A DNA stretch of 21,841 nucleotides from a virus. A program made the translations under genes and the position numbers. Numbering within the stretch: position 1 is the stretch's first letter; each line of letters begins with the position of its first letter. Below are positions 1,979-21,835 of the stretch, in pieces. The stretch covers positions 1 to 21,841 of the IMG/VR virus record IMGVR_UViG_3300033149_000281; one strand, written 5' to 3'. Below the pieces are notes generated by a model. That model made no database searches. It saw only the letters and a program-made list of their open reading frames with translations, and was not told where the DNA came from.

Positions 1979-2720
1979 ATGTGCGGCCTTATTTACAGGT
2001 ACGGACGGCCTTACTGAAAAGCAGATGGAGGCCCTTTACGTGCTGATGAATAAGCCCAAACTTACAGAAAACCAGGCGGCCAAGCGTGATGAGTTGATAG
2101 CCAAGCGTGACGCACCAATAACATTGGGAGAGGGTGCCAGGACATTGATAGAAGAGGCCATCGATGAGGTAATGTACGAGTATAGTTTATCTATTGACAG
2201 GAGAGAGATGACGAAGGGAACGGATGTTGAGGACGAGTCTATCGAGATATACAACAGAATCTTCTTCACTGACTACCGTAAGATGGAGGAGTTCGACGAC
2301 CACTACTCACTTAGCTTTCTGTTTGCATCAGGTCACCCTGACATTGTTGATTGTGAAAGACTTAAGGTGATAGACATTAAGTCTAGCTGGTCAAAGAAGA
2401 CGTTCCCAAAACGTCCGCCAAAGAGCTCGGCATACGAGTGGCAGGTAAAGATGTACCTATACATGCTTACCAAGAAGACTGGAAAGCACTGGTCTGATGG
2501 TGAGATTGCCTACATACTCACGACCACTCCTGAGGAGTTGATACCTGATCATGAGGATGACAGTCTGCACTACATGGACGCACTGGAGGATAACCTACGT
2601 GCAACTATAGTAAAGATAGAGCTGACTGAGGATGACATCAAGCACATGGATGCGAGGATGTTTGCGGCAGAGATGTACGCAAAAGAATATGTAAATTTTT
2701 TAACAACCAAAAACAAATAA
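1956..2720 (+). CDS. YqaJ/RecE-like PD-(D/E)XK exonuclease
   Basis: A 254-residue nuclease of the lambda-exonuclease/YqaJ superfamily. The catalytic signature is present in order: E94 in the helix before the core (TKGTDVEDESIEIY), D129 in GHPDIVD, the D140-I-K142 strand motif (VIDIKS), and Q163 in the helix YEWQVKMYLYM. The N-terminal 'RASKCAALFTG' resembles the DNA-entry segment of phage YqaJ nucleases. Such enzymes degrade one strand of linear duplex DNA to give single-stranded ends for annealing recombination. It overlaps the upstream conserved gene and is one base from the SSB gene, forming a compact recombination module. Length is normal for the family, and all catalytic residues are intact. 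Confidence 0.88.
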   Translation: MLKIRASKCAALFTGTDGLTEKQMEALYVLMNKPKLTENQAAKRDELIAKRDAPITLGEGARTLIEEAIDEVMYEYSLSIDRREMTKGTDVEDESIEIYNRIFFTDYRKMEEFDDHYSLSFLFASGHPDIVDCERLKVIDIKSSWSKKTFPKRPPKSSAYEWQVKMYLYMLTKKTGKHWSDGEIAYILTTTPEELIPDHEDDSLHYMDALEDNLRATIVKIELTEDDIKHMDARMFAAEMYAKEYVNFLTTKNK

Positions 2721-2721
2721 A

Positions 2722-3066
2722 ATGAGTAATCAATTTAAAATGAAAGGTGTCGTGGAAAAGATCTTCGACACAGAACACGTAAGTGAAAAGTTTAAGAAGA
2801 GAACATTTGTACTGAACGATCAGGCAGAGAAGTATCCACAAACCATATCGTTCCAGACGGTGCAGGATAAGACGACACTTTTAGACTCTATTATAGAGGG
2901 TCAAGAGGTAGAGGTATCGTTCAACCTTCGAGGACGTGAGTGGACATCACCAGATGGTGAGGTTAAGTACTTCAACACACTAGAGGCATGGAGAATAGAG
3001 GGATCCTCTGAACCAGCTCCACAGCCAGTTACAACTGAAGAGAAGGACGGAGATCTTCCGTTCTAG
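2722..3066 (+). CDS. ssb: DUF3127-type single-stranded DNA-binding protein
   Basis: A 114-residue protein that looks like an OB-fold SSB of the DUF3127 type typical of Bacteroidota and their phages: an N-terminal 'MKGVVEKIFDTE' strand, 'KRTFVLND' and 'TISFQTVQDK' strands, then a 'VEVSFNLRGREW' core and 'LEAWRIE' as the last strand. The C terminus is a Pro/Thr/Glu-rich linker ending in the acidic tip DGDLPF, the classic SSB tail that recruits replication and repair proteins. It directly follows the exonuclease, with which it should protect and hand over ssDNA. A structured region and an intrinsic terminator come just after its stop codon. Confidence 0.82.
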   Translation: MSNQFKMKGVVEKIFDTEHVSEKFKKRTFVLNDQAEKYPQTISFQTVQDKTTLLDSIIEGQEVEVSFNLRGREWTSPDGEVKYFNTLEAWRIEGSSEPAPQPVTTEEKDGDLPF

Positions 3067-3191
3067 GCATTGTGTTTTCATGATGAAAGCAGTTAGGGTT
3101 CTGCTGGTTAGCTGACCATACTCAGTAAAAACTCTGTAGCATCGGCTGTATGGTAGTCGGTGCTTTTTTATAAACAATTAAATTAAATATT
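3067..3191 (+). ncRNA. Structured intergenic region, candidate small or regulatory RNA
   Basis: This is the largest gap in the window, 125 bases between the SSB and GldL genes, and it is clearly structured. Three hairpins follow one another: TTTCAT/ATGAAA (3076-3081 with 3083-3088, single-base loop), AGCAG/CTGCT (3088-3092 with 3101-3105), and the terminator stem at 3138-3164. The segment ACCATAC (3115-3121) is an exact complement of the whole terminator loop GTATGGT (3148-3154). Such an arrangement could be a 3' UTR-derived small RNA, an attenuator with an alternative fold, or simply a stable 3' end for the SSB message. That it is an independent RNA is inference. Confidence 0.4.
3138..3169 (+). 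terminator. Strong intrinsic terminator after ssb
   Basis: A 10-base-pair stem AGCATCGGCT/AGTCGGTGCT (two G-U wobbles, no mismatch) closes the 7-base loop GTATGGT and runs straight into six T residues (3164-3169). This is a textbook Rho-independent terminator for + strand transcription. It sits in the middle of the early operon, so genes beyond it (GldL, primase) need read-through, antitermination or their own promoter; I see no clear Bacteroidota promoter between the T-tract and the next start. Confidence 0.85.
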
Positions 3192-3737
3192 ATGAGTAAT
3201 ACTAAAAGTTTTTTTGAAAGTAAGTCATGGAAAAATATCATGAAGTACATATACGGATTAGGAGCAGCAGTTGTTATTATGGGTGCATTGTTTAAAATTA
3301 TGCACTGGCCATTTGCTTCTGAAATGTTGATTGTCGGTTTAAGTACAGAAGCATTAATATTTGTAATGTCTGTCATGGAACCAGTTCATCTGGATAAAGA
3401 TTGGTCTAGGGTTTTCCCAGAGCTAGAGGACACCGAAGGTAAAGGTGTTGATGAAATTGAAGGTGTAGGTCTTTATGACTTATTACAGACATCAAGTGGA
3501 AGTAATATAAATCCTATCAATGAATTAAATGACATTGATGTGGTTAATTTAAAAGAATCTATAAATGATTTGTCTGAAAAAATTAAAGATATATCATCTT
3601 CTTTAAACACAATTTCAGATGATCTTACGACATCTTCCTTGCATACACATACTTATAAAAAGTCTATGGAAGATTTATCGTATACCTTAAAAGATATAAA
3701 CACTAAGTACAGTTCGATGTTAAATATTTTTAAGTAG
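3192..3737 (+). CDS. gldL: Phage-encoded GldL homologue (gliding/T9SS motor stator-like)
   Basis: A 181-residue homologue of GldL, the inner-membrane ring protein that with GldM forms the proton-driven motor of gliding and type 9 secretion in Bacteroidota. Two membrane helices (about 19-37 and 44-62) carry the family signature YGLGAAVVIMGALFKIMHWP, then MLIVGLSTEALIF and MEPVH, followed by the typical D-W-(S)-x-V-(F/Y)-PEL. The protonatable residues known to matter in F. johnsoniae GldL (Y13, K27, H30, E49, E59, from memory) align with Y21, K35, H38, E53 and E63. The C terminus has the family's coiled coil and an ending like 'L..IN..Y..ML'. It is full length or nearly so. No GldM is in the window. 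The gene is more AT-rich and prefers GAA and ATT codons, unlike its neighbours, suggesting recent acquisition from a host. Confidence 0.92.
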   Translation: MSNTKSFFESKSWKNIMKYIYGLGAAVVIMGALFKIMHWPFASEMLIVGLSTEALIFVMSVMEPVHLDKDWSRVFPELEDTEGKGVDEIEGVGLYDLLQTSSGSNINPINELNDIDVVNLKESINDLSEKIKDISSSLNTISDDLTTSSLHTHTYKKSMEDLSYTLKDINTKYSSMLNIFK

Positions 3738-6315: not shown

Positions 6316-7554
6316 ATGAGACTACGTGACTACCAGGTTGACATATCCAAGAGGGGTGTCGACATACTGAACAGACTCAATATGGTTTGCCTTGCGATGG
6401 AGGTACGTCTCGGTAAGACCTTCACATCCTTAGAGATATGTAGGCTTGCTGGGGCGACCAAGGTTTTATTCTTGACAAAGAAGAAGGCCATATCATCCAT
6501 ACAGGCCGATTACGACACCATGGATCCAGGGTTTGATATAACTATCATAAACTATGAATCCATACACAAGATTGATGATGTGATGTTTGACGTGGTGGTG
6601 TGCGATGAGTCACACACCATGTCTGCATTCCCTAAGCCAAGCATAAGGACACGTCAGATAAGAAAAATGTTGTCCATAAACAATGCCAAGCTTATACTCA
6701 TGACTGGCACGCTGACTCCAGAGTCATACAGTCAGATATACCATCAGTTTTATGTGCATCCTGACAATCCGTTCAGGTCATATAAAAACTTCTATGCATG
6801 GTCTCATGACTATGTGAATGTATGGCAGAGAAAGATAAACAGTTTTATGGTCAATGACTACTCTCGTGGTATCGAGGACAAGATAATGGGTACTGTTGCA
6901 CCCTACGTGATTTCCTTTACTCAGAAGGAGGCTGGATTCTCTACAGACATAGAGGAGGAGGTTATGTATGTCAAAATGCAGGACAGGACGTACCAGATAT
7001 GCGATACACTATCAAAGGATCTTGTTGTAGAGGGTAAGGAAGAGGTGATACTTGGTGATACCCCTGCTAAGTTGATGCAGAAGCTACACCAGTTGTATAG
7101 CGGAACTGTTAAATTTGAATCTGGAAATAGCATGGTTATTGACAGAACAAAGGCTATATTTGTCAGAGATACATTTAAGGGAAGTAAGATCGGTATATTC
7201 TACAAGTTTAAAGAGGAGTTAAAGCTGATTCAGTCTGTATTCGGTGATAGCCTCACTACAGACCTAGATGAGTTTAACTCAAGCGACAAGTCAATCGCCC
7301 TACAGATCGTTTCTGGGCGTGAGGGTATATCGCTACGTAATGCAGCACACCTTGTCTTCTACAACATAGACTTCTCTGCCGTAAGCTACTGGCAGGCTAG
7401 GGATAGGATGACAACTATGGAGAGGACATTCAACAAGGTGTACTGGATATTTAGTGAGGGTGGTATAGAGGACAAGATATACACCGCAGTCAAGAAGAAG
7501 AAGAGCTATACTGTTAACATATTTAAAAAGGATTATGACAAGAGAAGAGATTGA
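6316..7554 (+). CDS. SF2/SNF2-type DNA helicase-translocase
   Basis: A 412-residue superfamily 2 ATPase of the compact phage SNF2-like type. Motifs seen in order: Q-like LRDYQ (3-7), motif I VRLGKT with K34, motif II DESH (97-100), motif III TGT (130-132), and motif VI QARDRM with R362 and R364. Motif I departs from the usual MGxGKT, having Arg-Leu before Gly, which is common in phage members. The length covers only the two RecA-like lobes with no accessory domain. It follows the primase-helicase by 3 bases; likely jobs are replication-fork remodelling or helping recombination. Its last codons overlap the next small gene by 20 bases. Confidence 0.85.
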   Translation: MRLRDYQVDISKRGVDILNRLNMVCLAMEVRLGKTFTSLEICRLAGATKVLFLTKKKAISSIQADYDTMDPGFDITIINYESIHKIDDVMFDVVVCDESHTMSAFPKPSIRTRQIRKMLSINNAKLILMTGTLTPESYSQIYHQFYVHPDNPFRSYKNFYAWSHDYVNVWQRKINSFMVNDYSRGIEDKIMGTVAPYVISFTQKEAGFSTDIEEEVMYVKMQDRTYQICDTLSKDLVVEGKEEVILGDTPAKLMQKLHQLYSGTVKFESGNSMVIDRTKAIFVRDTFKGSKIGIFYKFKEELKLIQSVFGDSLTTDLDEFNSSDKSIALQIVSGREGISLRNAAHLVFYNIDFSAVSYWQARDRMTTMERTFNKVYWIFSEGGIEDKIYTAVKKKKSYTVNIFKKDYDKRRD

Positions 7555-8938: not shown

Positions 8939-9106
8939 ATGAGTCATGTAAATTACGTCAACGCTGTAATGTCTGAGATAAATAGCATGACCGATTCTAT
9001 ATATGAGGCGTTGATGGATGAGGATAATAGTGAGTTGAAAGACAGCATTCAAAATTTAATAAAAATTCTCAAAGATATACAAAAATCACATGAAAGCTTA
9101 CCGTAA
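8939..9106 (+). CDS. Small helical hypothetical protein (55 aa)
   Basis: A 55-residue ORF starting 19 bases after the previous stop and overlapping the phosphoesterase start by 17 bases. It is acidic and predicted fully helical, with a regular heptad-like run at the end (LKDSIQNLIKILKDIQKS). It covers the only gap between its neighbours, has phage-like codons and is coupled to the next gene, so I consider it probably real. Function unknown. Confidence 0.55.
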   Translation: MSHVNYVNAVMSEINSMTDSIYEALMDEDNSELKDSIQNLIKILKDIQKSHESLP

Positions 9107-10199
9107 CAGAGTACTTGAATTGTATGACGATCACACCACAAACAAGACAGAGATCTCAAGACTTATTAATAAAGAGTTTGGTCTAAATAGAAATCTTGAC
9201 TCCATAAGATGGAGTGTAAGAAACATAATAAACAACAGAGGTGTTCATGACGAATGCGAATCTGTTGGTATAGATCCAGAAAAAATAAAGCATTACTGGT
9301 ACAAGGGTAAGCATTACTCTATAAATGTATCAGGGAAGAATGAGTTTGATCCTGAATCATTTATATCTGAGCTGACTGAAGAAATATCAAAATGGAGTCC
9401 TAAGTATAAAAAGATCAAGAGGAAGAGGACAAAGGATCCTCACTGCCTTGTCTTTGATCCTGCCGACATCCACATAGGAAAGCTTTGCTCATCCTTTGAG
9501 ACTGGCGAGGAGTACAACAGTCAGATCGCTGTACAGAGGGTTAAGGAGGGACTTGAGGGTATCCTATCTAAGTCTGAGTCATGGAACATAGACAAGATAA
9601 TATTCATAGCTGGTAACGACGTCCTTCACACCGACAATCCCAGGAGGCAGACGACCTCTCAAACCCCACAGGATACCGATGGTATGTGGTACGAGAACTT
9701 TGTGACGGCCAAGAGATTGCTTATTGATATTATCGAGACCTTGATGTCTGTCGCTGATGTAGAGGTGGTTTACAACCCAAGTAACCATGACTATATGAGT
9801 GGCTTTATGCTACTTCAATGTATCGAGGCATGGTTCCGTAAGTCTAAGAACATCACGTTTGATAACGACATGTCTCACAGAAAGTACACGGTCTATGGGA
9901 AGAATCTTATTGGAAGCACACACATGGACGGTGCCAAGTCTCAGGACCTTCCGATGCTTATGGCACACGAGGCGTCAGAGAATTGGAACGATTGCAAGCA
10001 CAGGTATATTTATGGGCATCATATACATCACAAGACATCCAAAGATGTATTTTCGGTCTGTATAGAGACGCTTAGAAGTCCTTCAGGCAGTGACTCATGG
10101 CATCACCGCAAGGGATTTCAGCACGCTCCAAAGGCGGTTGAAGCCTTCATTCATAGTCCTGAGCATGGCCAGGTTGCTAGGCTTACTCACCTTTTCTAG
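9090..10199 (+). CDS. Mre11/SbcD-like calcineurin phosphoesterase with N-terminal HTH
   Basis: A 369-residue metallophosphoesterase. The two-metal motifs appear in order: D126-I-H128 (PADIHIGK), G175-N-D177 (AGNDVLH), N232-H-D234 (PSNHDYM), H278 (GSTHMDG) and the G309-H-H-I-H313 block (YGHHIHH). This layout is that of DNA-processing enzymes of the Mre11/SbcD group rather than small-molecule phosphatases, although the third motif has Ser instead of Gly before NHD. The first 60 residues look like a helix-turn-helix DNA-binding domain (TKTEISRLINKEFGLNRNLDSIRW region), giving a self-contained DNA-targeted nuclease; no SbcC/Rad50 ATPase is next to it. It is the last gene of the early block and ends tail to tail with the giant late gene, with no base between the stops. 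Confidence 0.82.
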   Translation: MKAYRNRVLELYDDHTTNKTEISRLINKEFGLNRNLDSIRWSVRNIINNRGVHDECESVGIDPEKIKHYWYKGKHYSINVSGKNEFDPESFISELTEEISKWSPKYKKIKRKRTKDPHCLVFDPADIHIGKLCSSFETGEEYNSQIAVQRVKEGLEGILSKSESWNIDKIIFIAGNDVLHTDNPRRQTTSQTPQDTDGMWYENFVTAKRLLIDIIETLMSVADVEVVYNPSNHDYMSGFMLLQCIEAWFRKSKNITFDNDMSHRKYTVYGKNLIGSTHMDGAKSQDLPMLMAHEASENWNDCKHRYIYGHHIHHKTSKDVFSVCIETLRSPSGSDSWHHRKGFQHAPKAVEAFIHSPEHGQVARLTHLF

Positions 10200-13100
10200 T
10201 TACCTTATCTTACCAAATGTTTTCTCGAACTTATCTATCTCTTCTTGAGATTTGTTAAGATAGTTTTTCTTGTAGTATATCTGGTATCCCTCTTTGAGTA
10301 TTTTGTTTCCTACCTTTGCAAGCTTAAATGACTGAGATAGTTCTTTTAATTCTTGATCATCTAAGCTGTCTCCATACCTTGAGTATAGTCTTGCCGCCAT
10401 CATCTTAGGGGATCTTTCGTAAATCATATCCGTCATTTCCTTAAACATCTCCTGACCTTTTAAATCTTTTCTAACGGTGTATGAACCGTAGTAAGGTCTG
10501 TCCTTTGTATTGACATCGTTCTTGTCAAGTATATCTTCAAGTTTTTTTAATTCACTTTGATACTCTTTACTATTGTAGTCTCCATTTCTAAGTACCTCTG
10601 AGTCTACATTTTTATTGATATCTTTTTTTATTTTTATCTTGGTTAGATATGCATCTGTATCTATACTTTTCTCAAGATCTTCTAATCTATCTTGGTTCTT
10701 ATATCTCAATAGGTTTGGATTTGTATGCCTTACCATTTTTTTACTAACCACATCTAGGAAATGTCCCATACCGTTATCAAACGTATCAGAATTTTCTTTG
10801 AATGCATCTGCTTCTGTATCAAATAATCCGTTTGTAAGAGCGTAAAATATAGATATACTAGGATTCGTACTCTCACTTGTTACAAGCTTTTCTACGGCAG
10901 CTTGGGATCTCTTTGGAGACATGTCAAGTGCAGGTGCAACCACCTTGTATATATCATTTACTCTGTCATCGTAAAGCCCCTCTGCATAAGGCTTTATCTT
11001 TTTATCTCTAGGCTCATAAAAAACCTTATCTCCTGTAAATGTATCCTCATTGTATGAGTATGTCAACCAAGCAGAAACAAGTGGGTTTCTTTTTGCAATA
11101 CTTCCAACTGCCTGAAGTACCGACTCGTCTCCCATAACAGGTCCTAGTACATCTAATGGTGCAGACATCTCTATAGACTTTTTTATAGATCTATCATCTG
11201 TGTTGTAATCAATACCTTGAGACTTTAAAAGATACTTTGTTGTGTACTGCTCTGTAGCTGTTCCAAGTATAGAAATTAGGGGAAGTTTTTTAATCCTGAC
11301 GTACTGATAGTTGCCGTCCTTATCCTTGTTCCCTGTAAATATTATATGATAGTTTGCCTTTTCATACATAGATACTGAATCCAATATGTCTTGAATTTTT
11401 TTCTTCTCCTCCTCATCGTCTCCTATCGCTCTGAGTAATGTTCCTAAAGAAGTCGCAGTCATACCTGCGGCCATTACCGCATACTGTACCACATTTGATG
11501 TAAAGCCTACTGGATTTTTTCTTACAAAGTCTAACGGTCTTCTAAGCCCCTGCATTGCAGCGTTGAAGTATGGCAGTGCCTGATCCATCTGCTTAACCCA
11601 TGTACCTCCCTGAGAGAAGTCAATGGTCTCCCTTGACTGTGCGGCTGCCTCAAACATTATATCCTCCATCTCCTGCTGGTTTGGAGATCTACCATTATCC
11701 TTCTCAAACTTCTTAATCTCTTCTTTCTTAACCCTTTCATATACAGCTAGTCTGAATGACATCTCACCAGTCTCTCCAACGTAAGACATAAATCTAGCAT
11801 ATGCGGCTAAACCTTTTTGAAAATTGTTAAGTATTCTATTTTTTAGCCTCATTTCCTGAACCATTCTAAGACCGTCTGTAGATAGGTAGTCCATAGCACC
11901 TCCGTGCTCCATAAACTCCATCTTAATCTTATTATAATTTTTTGTACTTCCAGTTTTTCTTAAAAAGTTTTTTACAAAGTCATATGCCAGCTGTACTGTT
12001 GCTAATGGCTTTATGGCTGAGTATACGTCTGAAAAGAATGCTATGTTTGCAAAGTCAACCGCAGTGTTACCAACGATGAACAATGGGTTACCACCCGTCG
12101 CAAAGAACCTTAATATATTTGCACCTGTTACCTTTCCTACACCTTTTAGCATGTTGTTTTGATTCTTCATGTCTAAAAGCTGTCTTGCATATTCTTCCTT
12201 CATAACCATCTCCTTCTCAACACCATCCTGGAAGTATTCAACCTTTCTGAAACCAGGAGGTAACTCCTTTACAGGCCCCTCAATTATAAAGTCTGATAGA
12301 GCTTCCTTGCCTGCCTTGTCTATGGATTCATATCCCTGAGCAAACTCATTCAGCATTTCATTTTCAAATGATCTTCTTACATATATATTAGTGTTCATCA
12401 TGAGAAGGAACCTTGCGTCGAATAGGATCTCATTCTTGTTCATGTCTGAAAGCTTCATTATATCCTTCTTGTTTACACCAAGCGTAGACACAGCATTGTT
12501 TATTTCCTCGTCAGTAATCGTATCTTTAGGTATCATATACTTTAGAGTCATGATCGGAGAGTACTCCACATCCTTAAGATCTTTATATGTCTCCTCAGTT
12601 ATTCGTCCAGATTCTCTAAGCATCTTAAGATTGTTCTTCATTGCCTTAAAATACAAATCTGCTCTTTCTGATAAAGCATCAAACTCTTTCTTCCCTAGAT
12701 CCTGCTCAAACTTTTCTAAGTTCTGAATTGCATCCTGCTCATTAAACCCATCCATACCTGTGTATGGGTTCTTCCCATTCTCACGTCTATTTTCATTGAT
12801 CGCAACGATACGTCTTGCGTATATTATAAGTTCAAGGTTTTCTATCTGGTCTGCTTTTAAACCTCCAAATATTTTCTTGTCATTCTGTTTAAATATTTCA
12901 TTTGCATATCCAGATGCACCAGCCTTTGTGACTATCCTGTTTATGATCTTACTCACCTTCTTAGGGTTGGGAACAAAGTCCTTTATGACTCTCTTTATGT
13001 CGTTCTGTCTGTCGAACAGTGATCTTCTTAGTCTTCTAAGTATAGGTCCCTTACCTTTGTTTGTCTCCTTGATCTTCTTGTCAGACTTCTTCTTCAGATT

Positions 13101-16100
13101 TCTGATGTCAATCTTTGGCTCTACAGGCCCGTCGTCCTTCTGCTTACGCTTTCTAAATATGCCAAGAAATCCTTTCTTCTCTTTAGGCTTTTGCTTACTT
13201 TCTACCTTCTTTTCTTTTATAGATATATTTTTTTCGTCTTCATACAGTAGTTTCTGATCTTTTATGTCGACATCCATGGTACTCTTAAGAGTCTTCTCTC
13301 TTCTTTCCTGAGGACTTAACTTTCTTCTTTTCTCTACATTTCTTGACATAGTCTCTCCAGCAAGCTCATCATATTTTTTATACCTATACTCTGCCTCCTC
13401 ATGCTTTGCATCATCTAGCTGCTTTTGAGTAGCCTTACCTTCTTCTAATAATTTTTTGGTTTCAATTATATTTTTTACTATATCGTTGTATTCGTTTTTT
13501 TCTTTGCTTGTAAAAGTTTTAGTTATCGTTTGAGCACTTCCTCCCATAGGGAATCCTGCAAGATCTGATACTGCATGTTGGATTTCATGTAGCACCTTTG
13601 AATTTAATTCATCGAGTCCTTTAGCTGTATCTATATCTGTTCTTTTATCAATTAAGGATTGAATGGATTTTATATCATTAAAGTATTCAATAGCTGATAC
13701 ATTGTTTTTATTTTTATATTCGTCTATTAATTTCTTGTTAATAATTCTTTGAGAAGAAGGATACACGCTTTCGGTTTCTTTTATCCATGTATCACTATTT
13801 CTGCTGACATTTTTGCTTTCTAATTCGTTTTCTTTCTTTAACAATCTAGCGTCTAATACAGCAGCATTTAAAACTTTATCATCCTTGCTGAGGCGTGACT
13901 GTGCCATCATACCCTCTATGTATTCTGAAAGGCCTATCTTAGAAAGATTAACCTCTATCAATCCCCTTTTAGGGAGGTATGCTGCCATTCCAGACTTTAA
14001 TGACTTATTAATAAATTTTATTTTTAATTTTTTTGCATCACCATATGCATCAAAAAGGCTTGGGAAACTAACGATTTCTTCTATGTTATAAACCTTATCT
14101 GTTTTGATATTTTTTACATCTATATCTATAACATCATTAAGCTCATAACCCCACTTGTTATCTGCACCTCTTTCCCATCCTGTGAGTAGTCTTATTTCTT
14201 CACGAGACTGACCCTTAGATTCCATCTCATTTGCCTGTAAAAGAAAGTCCTTGACGTTCTGTTTTAGATTTGCGTTCTCACCTATTACAATCTGCTTACG
14301 CTTTGCTGGGGATTCTTTAGCTCTCTCTATACCTTTCTTTAGACCGTCAGATGTGTATGCCGCATCTTCATTAGCTCCAAGCATCTCATACATTCTTTTC
14401 TCAAAGTCCCATATACGTTCCTGTATCATAGCTGGAGAGGTATCAAATGTCTTAGCCACCTCTTGAAATGCCTTGTCTGCAAGTCTTCGCATACGTCTTC
14501 CTTGCACTGTGCTCTCTGCCCATGGTATCTTTATAGCTCCCTTCTTTTTAGTTTTCTTGTTCTCTGCAACAAGATCCTGACCTGCCAGCCTAGCCATAGT
14601 CCTTGCGTACCACATATCTTTCGTTACAGTTGAAAAGTTTTGAAACCTATTGAGGATGTAAGAACCTAGTTTAGCTCCAGTCATACCAAACACTCCAAAA
14701 CCTCCATTTTCTTTAGACATATACTCATTCTGCTTCAACGCCTTAGGACCCTTCTCTGGTAATCCAAACATATCAGCTACCTCTTTGTAGGAGTGTTCAG
14801 ATGTTATCCAATCCATAGCCATATCTATATCTCCACCCATCTTATCGATTAAGGTGTTAAACTTATCAAGACCTGTCTGAGAGTAGGCTGGAGTTACTTT
14901 TGATCTCATAGGCTTCCCTTCCTTATCCAACCTAGGCTTCCCTGTATCTACACGTTTACCTCCAGGTAACGTCTTCCACTCTGTAGCTATCTTGTCTGAA
15001 TATCCAGACAGCTCACCAGTCTTCATGAATCTATCGAATATATCAAACCCTTTCCACGAGTCCATCTCAGGATTTGCAGATGGAGATGCAAATGCACTTA
15101 CCAGGTGATATAGTTTTACCTCTGTATTTGTAAGTGGTCTACCGTACTCTTTCTTTGCGTACTCTTGAAGTATGGGATTTGTCTTCTCAACTATATCTTT
15201 GTCGTAGAATGATACGTAGTCATCTTTTCTTACCTTCTCCCACGCTGTAAGCTCAAGAGTAATGTGATCTGCAAACTTATCTACAATCTCACTGTCAGAT
15301 AGATCTTTTACATCTTTATCAAATACTTTATTTTCTTTACTCCAACTATCAAGCCACTCAGCTACATCTTTAGTTGACTTTAATTTAGGTTTATCTTTAG
15401 ACAGAAATAAATCTTCAGCTTGCTTTCTAGCTGTGTCTGACATTTTTTCATCTACAACAGATTGAGGTATAACCTTAAGATCCACATCACTGATCTCCTC
15501 ACCGACTGCAACCTTTCCTGCTATTGTGTTCAACAGGTCAACCACCTCACCGTCAGTGAATGACTTCAGTCCGAACATCTTGGCCAGTCGATCTAAAAAC
15601 CTCTTGATCAGATTCTGGCTAGGCTTGTTCATCTGTGCATAGTTACCTGCTATTATACCTACAAGCTCGGCAAGCTTCTCCTCGCTTTGTATGTTCTCGT
15701 CATAGTTGGCAGCGAATGCGTCGAGTGCCTGCTTAACCTCAGGCATACCCTTAAGATTCTTTGATAAGGCCTTGATCATACGATCAGTAAGATCCTTTGC
15801 GGCCTGGTCTGTCTTAACCTTGTTTAGTAGTATGGCATGGAATACCTCGTGAGCTACCGTCCTGTTGTTAGCCCTGGATGTGTTTATGTGTATCTTCTTG
15901 GTCTTAGCGTTGTACTCACCACGAGATGCCTGCTTCTTGCTGTCCGTTTCGTTAGTCGCCTTCCTATATGAATCCTCGTTCTCATGAACCACGATCTCCA
16001 CTCCTGGTAGGATCTTAGCTATTGCCTTCCTTGCGTTATCTATCTGCTTGCGTATACCCTTCGCCTCCTTCTTTGGTGCCTCTTTAACAGGAGTTTTTTC

Positions 16101-19100
16101 AACCACCTCTTCAGTAACCTCAGTAGTGCGGGTATCTGTTATTTCGGAATACTGCTCTGGCAACAGACCTATTTTTTGTGGAGCAAAATCTCTTTCTCTA
16201 GCACTCTTGTATCCAGGATCTCCTTTCTTTAAAAGATTACCGTTGCTATCTCTCATTTGAGGACCAAAGTTTACCCAAGAATTTTGACCTCTTGTCTCAG
16301 CTGTCATCGCTCTTCTTGCTTTATCGGTAAACATTCTAGCATGAACATCCCATGCGTTCTCCTCTCCTTTAGCTCCAAAACCATTACCTCTTTCTGAATG
16401 TCCAAAGAAATCATGTACCCCTCTAAATAAATCATTTATTAACAGAGGCTTACCATTTTTATCCACGAACTCAGTCTCTGCAAGCATAGCATTTTCTTGA
16501 CGCTGCTGATCTGTTATTCCAGCTTCTCCATAACCTTGTTCTGTAGAAAAAATATACATGTGCTTATTATTAATAAGATCATCTATCATTTCTTGAGAAT
16601 TAGCGTATGGCTCTCCTTTGCCCTCGTAAATTTCAATCTCATATCCAGCATCAGTCATAGCTTTATACTGATCTATAGTTTCCTTAGCAAGAGCTTCGTA
16701 TGCTTCTTTTACTTCTGGATCATTAGGATTGTTTTCCATAGCTTCATAAGCATCAGCTATTTCCATAGATTTGTTAGTGTCAAGCTCAGTTATCTTTTCA
16801 CCAGCAGTTGTTTCTATACCCTTTTCTTTTTTATACTTAGCAGATATATCTGACGTCTCTGGATTAGGATCATTGAACAATCTTGCTCCTGGTTTAGCAC
16901 TTCTTCCTTGATCATCTACTGATTCTACTAATTGTTCTTGCTGTACTTCGGTAGCTTCTTCCCCTTGGGTGTCTCGCTGTCCCACATCTTGCAGTCCCAT
17001 TTCGGACTGTTCATCTGGTAGCACTTCCTTCTTTGTTTCTTGCTCTTGAATGGCATCTGTCTTGCTTATTTGTTGTAACTGATTATTTATCTCTGCGATC
17101 CTGTTTGTCTCCTCGACAACTAAATTTTTGTCTTTATCTTTAATTTTATTTTTTAAATCTGTTTGCTCTAAAAGAAGGTCATATGCCTGCTCCTTTTGAC
17201 TTGAAGATAACTCTGTAGGTATCTCCATCATTATTGGATATGCCTTGTTAAAGTTTTCTTTTATAGTAGTTGCATCCTGTTCAGATAGCTCTCCCTTTAA
17301 GACTTTTAAGTCAATCCTATCTATCATTAGATCTCTGGATTGATTGTCTGTCAAGGTGGAATAAACAGAATTAAAATCTAAACTTTTGTTTGATAAAAAT
17401 TCAGAAGCCTTAGACAGTCCTTGTGATGATACGTTTATAACACCACCGCTGAATGCTCCTAATTCAGCACTTTCCACAACAATTTCTGAAGCCTTTATGA
17501 TACCTGTGGCTGTTGTTATATCTGGAGCATCTTGAAATAAAGGGTGATCAAATATTTCTCTTATAAAATTTTTCTCTAGTATCTCTGCACCTGACTGACC
17601 TGCCTCTGTTAAGGCCTCGATAGCCATGGCCTTAGTTACTTTGCTTACAGCACCTCCAGCCATTTCATTTATAACTTTTTTTACTGACTGCTTCAAAGCC
17701 CCAAAACTTGCATCCTTTGGTAGATCCTTAAAAGCCCTTAATAGTATTTGTTTTTTAAGGGGTGTTAATCCTTGACGTATGGCACTCTGCATACCAAACT
17801 CTTCTAGCACAGCTTCAACCATAGCCATAGGGCCAACTAGACCTAGTTTTTCTAATGTAGATAAGTCCGAGTCTTCAAGCTCGTTCATTAATCTTCCTCC
17901 AGATGTAAGACCAAATGCAGCCTGTATACCTATTTTTGTTCCCCCACCAAAGGCCATTGTGGTTAATGAATTAAACGTTGTATTTAAGGCTTTAGTTAAA
18001 AACCCTGATTCGTTTATTGCTATCTGATCGGTCTTTGAAAGTCTACCTACAAGATTATCTAACTCTGCCTTAAATTGTTTTTTTCGTCTCTTTTGTTCGA
18101 TATCAACTATCTGATCTCTAGTTATTCCTCTACTCAACAACTCTTGTTCCTCCTCATCTGAAAGGTCTGTATAACCAAGTGCTGCAGAAAGATTTATTAC
18201 AGTATCTACTACAACTTCGTCAACTGAAGATATCGCAGTAGCTATTCCTTGACCTATAGCTGCAGCGATTCCTGTTCCCTTTTGTTTTTTTTCTTCAGCT
18301 ATAGCTCTTTCAAAATTATTAAGCTGTGATTCGATAAGGTTTATTGTTTCTTCAGGAACTAATTTTTTATCAGTTCTTGTTTGATCAAACATAAACTGAT
18401 TATTTCTTTCCACTCTGGCATATTCTATCATTGATCTTATTCCTTCTGGATCAACCATAAGATCGCTTTTAGCTCTTAATCCACCTAAGGTGAAATCGTC
18501 TGCTGAGTAGTCATACATACTTCCAAAAACTCCAGGGTTCATCGTTGCAAATAGAGCTAGCTTTATCTTATTAATCTTTCCATTTTCATCCACAAACTCT
18601 GACTCTTCTGGGTTGGTATAAAGAGTCATTAGTTTATCTTGAATGTATGCAGAAGGGTTTGCCTCAGACATCCATTTTCTAATCTTTCTTAAGGGCTCGT
18701 TTGATTCGTCTAGGTTTATCTGTATCGACTTTAACATCTCTCCAGCTACATAGGTCCTTATAGTTATAGCGTCCTGTCCATCAAGGTTTGTCTTAGAAAA
18801 TCTAAACATTAATGTATTTTCAGGAAATAATTCTTGAAGGTTTTCAAGTGTCTGATCTTCATCGTTTTCAACAACAGCAATATTTAATGGCGATACAGTG
18901 TTCTTGCTATTCTTTAAAGTCTCGTTATACATATCCATTGGAGTTATCTCTGGACCTAGTATTATCTTCTGTTCCTCAAACTCAATATCTCCATATTTTT
19001 TCATAAAATTAGAGGTGGCAATCCTTACGAGTTCATTCTGCTCTTCCTGTGTGTATATTTTATTTACATCAAGGTCAGGTACATTCTGTAGAATTAAATC

Positions 19101-20210
19101 ATTTCTTAATTGTAACTGATTCTTATCTATGCCATTTCTCTCATAGAATGAAGCATGTACCTTTGCAATAGGATCTTTTGTTATTATGCCTGTAAACATT
19201 TTTGCCAGAGCCTTGTCGTATTGCTCGTGTTTTTCAGGATTATATTTACCCTCTTTGTATACCGCCAGGTATTCTTCATCATCTAAACTTGACTGAAGGG
19301 CTGTGTTTACACTTTCAAAAACATCAAGCTCCTGTTGACCTTCTATTATGGGTTCAACATAATCAATATCAAACTCTCTAGCTCGTAAGTCTCTTTGCTC
19401 TTGTTCTAACTTTTCAGTGTCAACAAATTCAGCTGTTGGAAATTCAGCAGGAATAAAGTCTTCAGTAAATACAGATGATAACTTACCAATCTCACTTCTT
19501 GGTGTTTCTGTTTGATAGTCACTATCTTTAGCTAGCTTATCAAGATATTCTTGATCATTCTCAAGTTTTTTAATTTGCTCCTGTATTCTTCTCTTCTGAT
19601 TAAAGTCTGTAGCCTTGTCATACTCAGTATTTAGATCTTTAATTTTTTTCTGTACCTCTTTATCCTGAGATACCATATTATCATCATCAACTTTTTTCTG
19701 TTGATCAGCCTGTATATCTGTCTCGCTGAATAGGTTTGGAAACCTTTTCATTAGACCTACACGACTACCAATCGCATTTTTCCCAGAAGATATACTCTCT
19801 AAAATTTCAAGAGATGTTTTACCAGAATCAAGGCCTTCTTTATAAGTCTGTTCAACACGCTTATTATACTGGTTATCTTCTCTAAATAAATCTGAATACT
19901 CTTGTACTAATTGTAATCTTTGTATAGCAGATGTGTTTGGAAATAACTTGTTTACATCTCCAACATTTGCAGACATACCCTGCTGCTGCTGATATAGTCT
20001 GAAATTATCTACCGCTGACTTTATAGGATCATCCTGCTCAACTGTCTCCTTAGGTGGATCTATCTGTGCCTGATCACCAGGTATATAAAGAGTCGTTGTC
20101 GTAGTGGTCCTATTTGAATCCTCTAACGTCTCTTGATTCATCATATCCAACATCGGCTCGAATGCCGATTGATTTGGATCCAAGCCTTCTATCGGATTGT
20201 CTTCAGCCAT
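10200..20210 (-). CDS. Giant multidomain polyvalent virion protein (3,336 aa)
   Basis: A single unbroken frame of 10 kb, 2 bases after the 540-residue gene. Approximate layout: charged coiled-coil region (1-640); hydrophobic, Gly/Ala-rich helices (640-900) with the EALTEAGQSGAEIL type of repeat seen in membrane-active phage proteins; Gln/Glu-rich linker (1050-1105); a domain with GVHDFFGHSERG (about 1262-1273), ENAWDVHARMF and ETRGQNSWVNFG; a zinc-metallopeptidase-like domain with AHEVFHAILL (H1454, E1455, H1458); a domain with FGMTGAKLGSY and DMWYARTMARLAG (about 1600-1880); a LPD23-like domain with LHEIQH (H2208-H2212) and ELAGETMSRNVEKR; a Lys-rich linker (2330-2390); a helical region ending in a LPD38-like domain (GNPLFIVGNTAVDFAN, then TIDFSQGGTWVKQ and PYFNAAMQGLRRP, to about 2970); and a polar tail. 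Proteins of this kind are packaged in virions and ejected with DNA; ejection here is inferred. Confidence 0.85.
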   Translation of the reverse strand: MAEDNPIEGLDPNQSAFEPMLDMMNQETLEDSNRTTTTTTLYIPGDQAQIDPPKETVEQDDPIKSAVDNFRLYQQQQGMSANVGDVNKLFPNTSAIQRLQLVQEYSDLFREDNQYNKRVEQTYKEGLDSGKTSLEILESISSGKNAIGSRVGLMKRFPNLFSETDIQADQQKKVDDDNMVSQDKEVQKKIKDLNTEYDKATDFNQKRRIQEQIKKLENDQEYLDKLAKDSDYQTETPRSEIGKLSSVFTEDFIPAEFPTAEFVDTEKLEQEQRDLRAREFDIDYVEPIIEGQQELDVFESVNTALQSSLDDEEYLAVYKEGKYNPEKHEQYDKALAKMFTGIITKDPIAKVHASFYERNGIDKNQLQLRNDLILQNVPDLDVNKIYTQEEQNELVRIATSNFMKKYGDIEFEEQKIILGPEITPMDMYNETLKNSKNTVSPLNIAVVENDEDQTLENLQELFPENTLMFRFSKTNLDGQDAITIRTYVAGEMLKSIQINLDESNEPLRKIRKWMSEANPSAYIQDKLMTLYTNPEESEFVDENGKINKIKLALFATMNPGVFGSMYDYSADDFTLGGLRAKSDLMVDPEGIRSMIEYARVERNNQFMFDQTRTDKKLVPEETINLIESQLNNFERAIAEEKKQKGTGIAAAIGQGIATAISSVDEVVVDTVINLSAALGYTDLSDEEEQELLSRGITRDQIVDIEQKRRKKQFKAELDNLVGRLSKTDQIAINESGFLTKALNTTFNSLTTMAFGGGTKIGIQAAFGLTSGGRLMNELEDSDLSTLEKLGLVGPMAMVEAVLEEFGMQSAIRQGLTPLKKQILLRAFKDLPKDASFGALKQSVKKVINEMAGGAVSKVTKAMAIEALTEAGQSGAEILEKNFIREIFDHPLFQDAPDITTATGIIKASEIVVESAELGAFSGGVINVSSQGLSKASEFLSNKSLDFNSVYSTLTDNQSRDLMIDRIDLKVLKGELSEQDATTIKENFNKAYPIMMEIPTELSSSQKEQAYDLLLEQTDLKNKIKDKDKNLVVEETNRIAEINNQLQQISKTDAIQEQETKKEVLPDEQSEMGLQDVGQRDTQGEEATEVQQEQLVESVDDQGRSAKPGARLFNDPNPETSDISAKYKKEKGIETTAGEKITELDTNKSMEIADAYEAMENNPNDPEVKEAYEALAKETIDQYKAMTDAGYEIEIYEGKGEPYANSQEMIDDLINNKHMYIFSTEQGYGEAGITDQQRQENAMLAETEFVDKNGKPLLINDLFRGVHDFFGHSERGNGFGAKGEENAWDVHARMFTDKARRAMTAETRGQNSWVNFGPQMRDSNGNLLKKGDPGYKSARERDFAPQKIGLLPEQYSEITDTRTTEVTEEVVEKTPVKEAPKKEAKGIRKQIDNARKAIAKILPGVEIVVHENEDSYRKATNETDSKKQASRGEYNAKTKKIHINTSRANNRTVAHEVFHAILLNKVKTDQAAKDLTDRMIKALSKNLKGMPEVKQALDAFAANYDENIQSEEKLAELVGIIAGNYAQMNKPSQNLIKRFLDRLAKMFGLKSFTDGEVVDLLNTIAGKVAVGEEISDVDLKVIPQSVVDEKMSDTARKQAEDLFLSKDKPKLKSTKDVAEWLDSWSKENKVFDKDVKDLSDSEIVDKFADHITLELTAWEKVRKDDYVSFYDKDIVEKTNPILQEYAKKEYGRPLTNTEVKLYHLVSAFASPSANPEMDSWKGFDIFDRFMKTGELSGYSDKIATEWKTLPGGKRVDTGKPRLDKEGKPMRSKVTPAYSQTGLDKFNTLIDKMGGDIDMAMDWITSEHSYKEVADMFGLPEKGPKALKQNEYMSKENGGFGVFGMTGAKLGSYILNRFQNFSTVTKDMWYARTMARLAGQDLVAENKKTKKKGAIKIPWAESTVQGRRMRRLADKAFQEVAKTFDTSPAMIQERIWDFEKRMYEMLGANEDAAYTSDGLKKGIERAKESPAKRKQIVIGENANLKQNVKDFLLQANEMESKGQSREEIRLLTGWERGADNKWGYELNDVIDIDVKNIKTDKVYNIEEIVSFPSLFDAYGDAKKLKIKFINKSLKSGMAAYLPKRGLIEVNLSKIGLSEYIEGMMAQSRLSKDDKVLNAAVLDARLLKKENELESKNVSRNSDTWIKETESVYPSSQRIINKKLIDEYKNKNNVSAIEYFNDIKSIQSLIDKRTDIDTAKGLDELNSKVLHEIQHAVSDLAGFPMGGSAQTITKTFTSKEKNEYNDIVKNIIETKKLLEEGKATQKQLDDAKHEEAEYRYKKYDELAGETMSRNVEKRRKLSPQERREKTLKSTMDVDIKDQKLLYEDEKNISIKEKKVESKQKPKEKKGFLGIFRKRKQKDDGPVEPKIDIRNLKKKSDKKIKETNKGKGPILRRLRRSLFDRQNDIKRVIKDFVPNPKKVSKIINRIVTKAGASGYANEIFKQNDKKIFGGLKADQIENLELIIYARRIVAINENRRENGKNPYTGMDGFNEQDAIQNLEKFEQDLGKKEFDALSERADLYFKAMKNNLKMLRESGRITEETYKDLKDVEYSPIMTLKYMIPKDTITDEEINNAVSTLGVNKKDIMKLSDMNKNEILFDARFLLMMNTNIYVRRSFENEMLNEFAQGYESIDKAGKEALSDFIIEGPVKELPPGFRKVEYFQDGVEKEMVMKEEYARQLLDMKNQNNMLKGVGKVTGANILRFFATGGNPLFIVGNTAVDFANIAFFSDVYSAIKPLATVQLAYDFVKNFLRKTGSTKNYNKIKMEFMEHGGAMDYLSTDGLRMVQEMRLKNRILNNFQKGLAAYARFMSYVGETGEMSFRLAVYERVKKEEIKKFEKDNGRSPNQQEMEDIMFEAAAQSRETIDFSQGGTWVKQMDQALPYFNAAMQGLRRPLDFVRKNPVGFTSNVVQYAVMAAGMTATSLGTLLRAIGDDEEEKKKIQDILDSVSMYEKANYHIIFTGNKDKDGNYQYVRIKKLPLISILGTATEQYTTKYLLKSQGIDYNTDDRSIKKSIEMSAPLDVLGPVMGDESVLQAVGSIAKRNPLVSAWLTYSYNEDTFTGDKVFYEPRDKKIKPYAEGLYDDRVNDIYKVVAPALDMSPKRSQAAVEKLVTSESTNPSISIFYALTNGLFDTEADAFKENSDTFDNGMGHFLDVVSKKMVRHTNPNLLRYKNQDRLEDLEKSIDTDAYLTKIKIKKDINKNVDSEVLRNGDYNSKEYQSELKKLEDILDKNDVNTKDRPYYGSYTVRKDLKGQEMFKEMTDMIYERSPKMMAARLYSRYGDSLDDQELKELSQSFKLAKVGNKILKEGYQIYYKKNYLNKSQEEIDKFEKTFGKIR
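13440..13800. other. Very AT-rich island inside the giant gene
   Basis: Within the LPD23-like part of the giant gene the base composition drops sharply: four lines counted by hand (13441-13500, 13621-13680, 13681-13740, 13741-13800) contain 56 G or C in 240 bases. Two lines in the metallopeptidase part (15841-15960) contain 59 in 120. The frame stays open throughout. This suggests domain-by-domain assembly from sources with different composition. Confidence 0.6.
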
Positions 20211-20212
20211 AG

Positions 20213-21835
20213 TTATGATATGTTTTGATTGTTACCCCTTCCTAGGATACCGTTTGCTAGTCTTTGTAAAAAATTACCGCCCTGATTACTGGCCATCTGA
20301 TCGGCTGGCATCTCTTCTGTCTGCTCCTCCATCATTGCTATTTCTGGCTTTCCTGTTGCCTTGTAGAATGCTTCTCTCTCTGCGTTGTATGTAGCCTCTG
20401 GTTTAGTACCACCAGTCGCACCAGACTTTCCGTAGAAGTATGGAACTAGGTCTGTCAATGACTTTCTTTTATAAACTAATTCATTCTTAGGATCTCCAAC
20501 AGTATTTTCAGATATGTCGTACACATCTATAAAGCCATCTTGTCTAACCTCAAACCTTAGATCCTTAGCCTCTGGTGTCTTTCTGATATTTAAAGTCTCA
20601 GAGTCACCTTCTTTTATTGCGTTATACAATGCCTCGTACAGGTCATAGCTCACTTCTCCTTCTTCTTCTTTAGGAGTTGGAGTCTTTGTATCCTTGGGGT
20701 TAGGCGGCTTGGCTTCCACCTTTGAGTATCCAAGGTTAGACATAAATGCACTCTCTACAACTGCGTCAAGTGCCATCATTTGTTCTTGATTTAAAGATGG
20801 TTGAAATATACCCTGAGCGTCCGTAATGTTAGGTACAAGAAACCTGTCGTATTCGGCTATAAATCCACCAAGCTCTTTACCCTTTAATGGTTCCTCTCCT
20901 CTAATACGTCTGGCTCCGTTTTCTATCTCTATAAACTTATTCATCTTTTTCTGATAGTCTCCACCCTGTTGATCTTTAGGATCAAAGTAAGTTTCATATC
21001 TATTGTCAGACTGAGCAAGTGTGTTATAGGTAAGTCTTGGATTTGATTTTATATACGACTGAATCCTTGATATAGCATCAGGTACACCTGGATTCATGAC
21101 TGCTCCCTTTTCTGTCATGTATATGTTCTTTCTTATCCTACCATCTATCGTTTCTATATCCTCAACAAAAGCTTCCTCGTAAACACCAATGTTTTCTGTT
21201 CTATCTTTAATCAATCCGTCGAAGTTAAAAAAGTTATCGTTAACATTCATTGGCTTATTTAAACTTTTGACGTCATGAAGATTATTGTAGTCTGATATAT
21301 TTCCAGTCTCATCAAGGTCAGCTAAGAAAAACTTACCTGTATTAGGATCCTGATATATAGTTTTATTTTTTAAGTTCAATAGCTCGGAACGTCTTTCTAT
21401 TAAGTCTTCTTCATACTTAGATCCTGCTGGGAGCCCATCTTCTCCAGGCTGCTGTCTGGTAAGTCCATTCTGTATTGTCTGATCCAATGTCTTTGCAGTG
21501 GTTGCAAATGACTTCCAATCGTCATTGCTATTGTTTATAAAGTTTCTATAGTCGTTATGATTAATATTACCAGCCTTAACCGCCTTATTTATCTCATAAG
21601 TGTTGTTAACATTTTGAGATATAGCACCAGAAAGAAGTGTGTTTAGATCTTGAGTCTGAAAGTTTTCAGTCTCCCTAACGGCACTCATATTGTTACGCTG
21701 CAGTTCATCGAAGTATGCATCCTGTATACCTTTTCTTGCACCTATCTCCATAAGTCCCTGTGAGAACTCTGACGTCAACTTACCCCAATCAATCGCTGGG
21801 GCTGCCTTAAATCCTAAATAACTTTTTTCTGCCAT
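20213..21835 (-). CDS. Probable internal virion or structural protein (540 aa)
   Basis: A complete 540-residue ORF on the minus strand, 2 bases upstream of the giant gene, so the two are almost certainly one late transcription unit. The N terminus (AAPAIDWGKLTSEFSQGLMEIGARKGIQDAYFDEL) is a long helix like those of phage internal or ejection proteins. The middle is mixed alpha/beta with many Asn and Asp; a Pro/Lys/Thr linker (PPNPKDTKTPTPKEEE) separates a small C-terminal domain; the end is a short amphipathic helix (FLQRLANGILGRG). No enzymatic motif is seen. A structural role is inferred from the position and the company of a LPD-type giant; it might be a core, portal-proximal or tail-interior protein. 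Confidence 0.65.
   Translation of the reverse strand: MAEKSYLGFKAAPAIDWGKLTSEFSQGLMEIGARKGIQDAYFDELQRNNMSAVRETENFQTQDLNTLLSGAISQNVNNTYEINKAVKAGNINHNDYRNFINNSNDDWKSFATTAKTLDQTIQNGLTRQQPGEDGLPAGSKYEEDLIERRSELLNLKNKTIYQDPNTGKFFLADLDETGNISDYNNLHDVKSLNKPMNVNDNFFNFDGLIKDRTENIGVYEEAFVEDIETIDGRIRKNIYMTEKGAVMNPGVPDAISRIQSYIKSNPRLTYNTLAQSDNRYETYFDPKDQQGGDYQKKMNKFIEIENGARRIRGEEPLKGKELGGFIAEYDRFLVPNITDAQGIFQPSLNQEQMMALDAVVESAFMSNLGYSKVEAKPPNPKDTKTPTPKEEEGEVSYDLYEALYNAIKEGDSETLNIRKTPEAKDLRFEVRQDGFIDVYDISENTVGDPKNELVYKRKSLTDLVPYFYGKSGATGGTKPEATYNAEREAFYKATGKPEIAMMEEQTEEMPADQMASNQGGNFLQRLANGILGRGNNQNIS

Follow-up and report, generated by a model that had tools for sequence, protein, structure and literature searches.

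The virus record analysed here, a stretch of 21,841 bases that we call the window, contains a giant gene whose product consists, as judged by nucleotide comparison, of a constant frame and two cargo slots, and among its relatives whole modules differ in frame through recombination. As far as our searches show, this slot-and-island organisation with recent in-frame exchange is new. The single frame of 3,336 residues described in the original prediction was confirmed at its position, and it lies on the minus strand, which had not been given before. The features are collected in Table 1.

Table 1. Features of the giant gene and of genes discussed with it. Residue i of the giant corresponds to window position 20210-3(i-1); percentages are nucleotide identities.
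Feature	Residues	Window position	Strand	Remarks
540-aa gene, directly upstream of the giant		20213..21835	-	candidate partner ejection protein
Giant polyvalent protein gene		10200..20210	-	ATG start, 3,336 aa
Conserved start island	1-52	20055..20210	-	about 90% in L015, L027 and L107; alignments end at CDS nt 154
N-terminal region	53-1023	17142..20054	-	very divergent alleles, 44-54% to relatives
Conserved island upstream of slot 1	1024-1096	16923..17141	-	83-94% in L015, L027, L107 and L012; 71% in L014
Cargo slot 1	1097-1377	16080..16922	-	holds the HDFFGH module
HDFFGH module	about 1134-1345; motif 1266-1271	motif 16398-16415	-	phrog_3170
MPT1, constant zincin-like domain	1378-1582	15465..16079	-	HEVFH at 15837-15851; predicted third ligand Glu1511
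Cargo slot 2	1583-2353	13152..15464	-	holds SL2A and LPD23/HEIQH
SL2A module	1605-1960	14331..15398	-	98% in L010, replaced in L015
LPD23/HEIQH module	1966-2330	13221..14315	-	HEIQH at 13575-13589
Lys/Arg-rich linker	2325-2395	13026..13238	-	border of cargo and C-terminal region; from sequence
C-terminal region (CTD), LPD38-like	2354-3336	10203..13151	-	DFSQGG at 2864
369-aa gene		9090-10199	+	
GldL homologue		3192-3737	+	

When the giant gene was compared with its relatives, dN/dS was about 0.07-0.36 for residues 53-1023, the zincin-like domain and the C-terminal region, showing that the gene is translated and under purifying selection. The two predicted HExxH sites were found as HEVFH at residues 1454-1458 and HEIQH at 2208-2212, and the HDFFGH motif begins at H1266. 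In shuffled versions of the protein the mean number of HExxH motifs was 0.012, and two motifs occurred in 0/1,000 shuffles. The proposed hydrophobic helices held only weakly. Mildly hydrophobic stretches are present, with an N-terminal one at about 640-1100 that falls partly within residues 53-1023 (NTD HMM match at 729-1078), but they do not qualify as clear transmembrane helices, the best 19-residue Kyte-Doolittle mean being 1.31.

The giant was predicted to be a polyvalent protein with several enzyme-like domains, and by its domain content it is indeed a phage large polyvalent protein (LPP). Disparate domains, namely LPD23, a phrog_3170 match, MPT1 and an LPD38-like C-terminus, are joined in one chain, and in the close relatives G003 and G001 the gene stands in a phage structural-gene neighbourhood. 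An NCBIfam search of the giant protein gave no matches. Phage LPPs with one to five zincin-like peptidases are described by Iyer et al. (2017, PMC5512222), and the class is therefore not new. The LPPs of phage type described there resemble the giant in uniting unrelated enzyme-like domains in one very long chain, in their zincin-like MPTases and structural-gene context, and in sharing LPD23, an LPD38-like region and the ART-PolyVal found in sister proteins of the giant. Compared with those proteins, the giant has as its own a module order seen once in our sample, the slots and islands with recent in-frame exchange traced at the nucleotide level, and the HDFFGH domain, which lies outside Pfam.

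Nucleotide alignments of the giant gene showed conserved islands (residues 1-52, 1024-1096, 1378-1582 with the HEVFH zincin-like domain, and 2354-3336) with unrelated or very divergent stretches between them. Alignments ended at CDS nt 154 in L015, L027 and L107 and at nt 4746 in L012, L027 and L107, and they started at nt 7059-7066 in L009, L010, L011, L012 and L014; the agreement of these breakpoints was taken from BLAST alignment ends. Between the window and L015, the start island was 91% identical (dS 0.32), residues 53-1023 only 48% (dS 2.1) and residues 1024-1096 again 90% (dS 0.34). The HDFFGH slot was 99% identical (dS 0.01) and was followed by MPT1 with 73% (dS 1.5). SL2A was replaced, the HEIQH module was 99.6% identical (dS 0.005) and the C-terminal region 93% (dS 0.25). 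The unequal divergence of adjoining segments means that the segments of this one gene have separate recent histories. The HDFFGH cassette was also 98% identical in L027 and was absent from L012, L014 and L107. In L010, which is cut at its 5' end, the identity of 98% extended to residue 1974 and resumed at 2354, without the LPD23/HEIQH module. L027 and L107 have the MPT1 of the window at 93-95% identity but an unrelated C-terminal third. From this pattern we infer that the conserved islands themselves are the recombination sites.

Nearly all relatives of the giant are metagenome contigs, and megablast found no nucleotide relatives among isolated phages. A census with HMMs built here gave 238 giants of at least 1,500 aa with the same modules in varying order; HDFFGH precedes MPT1 in some and follows it in others, and the order of the window, NTD-HDFFGH-MPT1-SL2A-HEIQH-CTD, was found once, counts that describe the sample and not phages generally, since the loci were fetched by module similarity and some contigs were repeated or cut. 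The claim of a new architecture thus holds for the exact order of the modules and not for the class. In other giants, Pfam identified ART-PolyVal (L009, L018, L107 and L127), DUF7178 (L012 and L014) and DUF3293 (L014 and L107) in the places where the window has HDFFGH, SL2A or LPD23/HEIQH. For the homologue alignments we used naturally extended homologues checked by motif position; a combined MAFFT alignment of short homologues misplaced modules.

No relative with complete sequence here lacked MPT1, which by this distribution belongs to the constant frame and is retained whatever the cargo. In 102 homologues the HExxH letters were conserved to 95-100% and the downstream Glu to 99%. Between the window and relatives, dN/dS of MPT1 was 0.10-0.28. 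In the AF2 model (pLDDT about 80-95) the motif lies on a helix spanning model positions 320-335, and the Glu on another at 376-397. When the model was searched against the PDB with Foldseek, the leading matches were mostly zincins (selecase, IrrE, the lethal-factor peptidase domain and jannalysin), none of them significant, with a best E of 0.24. The predicted structure is therefore no more than suggestive of a zincin fold. Phage domains of this kind were tied to zincins by profile methods by Iyer et al. (PMC5512222). No MPT1 was found when bacterial genome contigs were searched. The HEIQH module is missing from many relatives and is, by its distribution, optional cargo. With HEVFH in the constant frame and HEIQH in the cargo, the two HExxH sites are not equivalent and do not form a matched pair.

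For the HDFFGH domain, which had been predicted from its motif, the PHROGs search gave phrog_3170, a family of unknown function, at residues 1150-1318 (E 1.8e-15). Many polar residues are invariant in 86 homologues, and the AF2 model is mostly alpha-helical with pLDDT mostly above 90. The domain had no Pfam match. It strongly matches other predicted phage proteins, for example from mycobacteriophage Spud and from Gordonia phage Skog, and occurs in at least 537 viral contigs. One literature search for the motif found no publication; HDFFGH is enzyme-like, widespread and as yet without a name. The similar motif HELLGH is the site of aromatic amino acid hydroxylases; a relation to this site was unsupported, with no PDB match by fold (Foldseek) and none convincing by profile. 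In a Bixzunavirus mycobacteriophage and in Gordonia phage Skog (L025:1864-4960, L026:324-3462), a stand-alone HDFFGH gene adjoins a DUF7178-like gene. Since both are cargo modules in giants, their adjacency suggests a functional link.

In slot 2, the AF2 model of SL2A had a mean pLDDT of mostly about 80-97 per block, and no PDB match was found. A comparison by hhalign did not support placing SL2A in DUF7178 (34% probability over 34 columns). Among the 40 LPDs of Iyer et al. (PMC5512222) there may be one that matches HDFFGH or SL2A. The LPD23-like domain that had been proposed together with HEIQH was recovered by Pfam at residues 1988-2026, about 180 residues ahead of HEIQH (E 1.7e-10, 41 bits against a curated cut-off of 27), and the two form one module, as they do in many other phage LPPs. 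This cassette is 99.6% identical at the nucleotide level in L015 and absent from L010. In the model HEIQH lies on a predicted helix, and a GE..xRN motif follows HE-x-QH in 66 of 97 occurrences. The HEIQH module had no PDB match.

The C-terminal region had been described as LPD38-like. In the window protein itself no Pfam LPD38 match was found at E <= 1, but 8 of 14 homologous C-termini matched, the best with E 3.9e-12, so that the LPD38 homology of the window runs through its relatives only. A homology to the N4 C-terminal domain was not detected (hhalign probability 0.1), in a comparison of limited sensitivity because a single N4 sequence was used. Two loci, L027:4644-14639 and L107:3-11054, carry an alternative C-terminal type; they are 95% identical to each other in it and without a clear Pfam match. 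In the Cellulophaga phage phi46:3 the region is divided between the genes gp120 and gp121 (L021:6512-13031).

The window breaks off directly ahead of the 540-aa gene. Relatives of the 540-aa protein were found in 9 of 11 related contigs, and L290 and L291 have it at the equivalent place. In the close relative G003, TerL, portal and several virion structural families are followed by genes of 219 aa and 540 aa and then by the giant as the last gene of this operon; G001 has the same order. The best matches of the portal, 46-61% identical, come from Flavobacterium and Maribacter phages and a spring-water podovirus (MW202828), where the homologous portal is labelled 'P22 like'. The remaining genes of the window encode a PD-(D/E)XK-type protein, a BT4734-like/DUF5906 primase-helicase-type protein, a ResIII/SNF2-type helicase, VRR-NUC, a DnaA-C-like protein and the GldL homologue. 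Because the relatives and the GldL homologue point there, the host probably belongs to the Flavobacteriales. The phage is probably podovirus-like.

GldL is a subunit of the gliding and type 9 secretion motor. The phage homologue (Pfam GldL_N, E 9.7e-29) has retained the membrane part as well as the TEALIF glutamate, and at 181 aa, compared with 261-284 aa in bacteria, it is shorter in the C-terminal part. It is present in close relatives and missing from the wider set of giant-carrying contigs. Cellulophaga gliding proteins have been connected with phage adsorption and resistance (PMC13288928), which makes superinfection exclusion through an altered host motor a testable idea. The 369-aa gene runs towards the giant, and its last base adjoins the stop codon of the giant. 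It is kept in near relatives and by eye looks like a calcineurin-type phosphoesterase (GND, NHD, GHHIHH); a Pfam search gave no match.

The likeliest role of the giant, judging from gene order and homology, is that of an ejection (internal virion) protein, which probably enters the host with the phage DNA. Homologues in phi46:3 and the elemo phages, podoviruses of flavobacteria that have been cultured, are annotated as virion or structural proteins, labels that may rest on prediction. We propose that the giant and its upstream partners of about 540 and 220 aa would be packed into the head and leave it together with the DNA. The N-terminal region may help to form or follow a channel, and the C-terminal region may serve packaging. 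In the cell, MPT1 would act as a zinc peptidase that cuts linkers to free the cargo or otherwise processes the chain. The cargo, consisting of the putative HDFFGH enzyme, SL2A and the putative LPD23/HEIQH peptidase, and of an ADP-ribosyltransferase in sister phages, would then hit early host targets. By recombination through the conserved islands, related phages could swap cargo while the delivery frame stays unchanged. To this reading as a whole, an ejected LPP of a podovirus-like Flavobacteriales phage with a constant frame, exchangeable cargo, processing by MPT1 and cargo acting on early host targets, we assign a probability of about 0.6. According to Iyer et al. (PMC5512222), the N4 virion RNA polymerase has an MPTase domain and is packaged unprocessed; self-cleavage of the giant is therefore uncertain and should not be assumed before packaging.

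The same unprocessed N4 protein would suit a different view, in which each HExxH domain is an effector cleaving host proteins, the chain stays whole and the constancy of MPT1 reflects a universal host target. The possibility is raised by Iyer et al. (PMC5512222), and HEIQH does behave as cargo. However, MPT1 is fixed between the slots and kept whatever the cargo, a pattern more in keeping with a role in the frame, though not decisive, and we consider the effector view unlikely. Another reading, in which peptidase activity was lost from the HExxH domains or never present in them and the giant is mainly a structural or channel part of the virion with degenerate domains, seems to us distinctly improbable. 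It finds a parallel in N4 gp50, whose C1 domain has an HExxH motif and whose CTD autoinhibits transcription, while the passages on it report no protease activity (PMC12633501), and it would agree with the lack of a significant PDB match for either HExxH domain. Yet HExxH and the downstream Glu are near-invariant in the 102 homologues and under purifying selection, and HDFFGH retains many invariant polar residues, all of which speaks against this reading.

The mosaic itself might be thought an artefact of metagenome assembly, since conserved islands can cause mis-joins of different phages and the comparison draws on metagenome contigs almost throughout. This is hardly credible, because contigs of separate metagenomes have the breakpoints at CDS nt 4746 and 7059-7066 in common, the reading frames of the giants run on without interruption, and the divergence of the islands from contig to contig (dS about 0.2-1.5) is too high for a single shared sequence.

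Several known proteins share parts of this organisation. Flavobacterium elemo gp18 (3,694 aa, 'structural protein') has an MPT1 of 48% identity, is the last gene of its structural operon and follows a gene of about 450 aa, but it has no blastp similarity outside MPT1 and carries DUF3293. In gp120/gp121 of Cellulophaga phi46:3 and in the protein of Maribacter phage Panino the C-terminal region is recognisable at 27-29% identity, and their genes lie at the end of the structural gene block, but the proteins are shorter, and divided between two genes in phi46:3. As an analogy only, the N4 virion RNA polymerase gp50 is an ejected chain of about 3,500 aa in which an HExxH domain precedes a C-terminal region that is large and mostly helical (PMC12633501). 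Unlike in gp50, no single-subunit RNA polymerase domain was found in the giant with Pfam, PHROGs and NCBIfam. In the Bixzunavirus mycobacteriophages and Gordonia phage Skog, HDFFGH is the same domain by sequence and predicted fold, but there it is a separate gene, beside the DUF7178-like gene whose kind is cargo in L012 and L014, and not a cassette in a giant chain. With P22-like ejection proteins the giant was compared by operon position only; in G003 and G001 it closes a head/structural operon that includes a P22-like portal.

Polyvalent proteins are thought to carry the first-strike enzymes of phages, and changes in their architectures have mostly been inferred from distant comparisons. Such proteins with zincins, LPDs and ARTs were already known; the domain order and the attention to HDFFGH are new, as far as our searches show. 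Near-identical cassettes among frame segments that have diverged to very unequal degrees, together with shared breakpoints, provide a testable model of effector trading within one gene. They also set the frame with its HEVFH zincin-like domain apart from the cargo (HEIQH, HDFFGH and ART), and HDFFGH is an abundant enzyme-like domain worth purifying. Tentatively, and with more doubt than confidence, we suggest that the giant is a platform for cassette exchange. The short islands including the zincin would be anchors for homologous recombination, the zincin would free the installed cargo after ejection, and at least one cargo, HDFFGH, would represent an undescribed enzyme family, perhaps a metalloenzyme. 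If this is true, the giant would be a phage counterpart of polymorphic toxins, with the cargo in internal slots.
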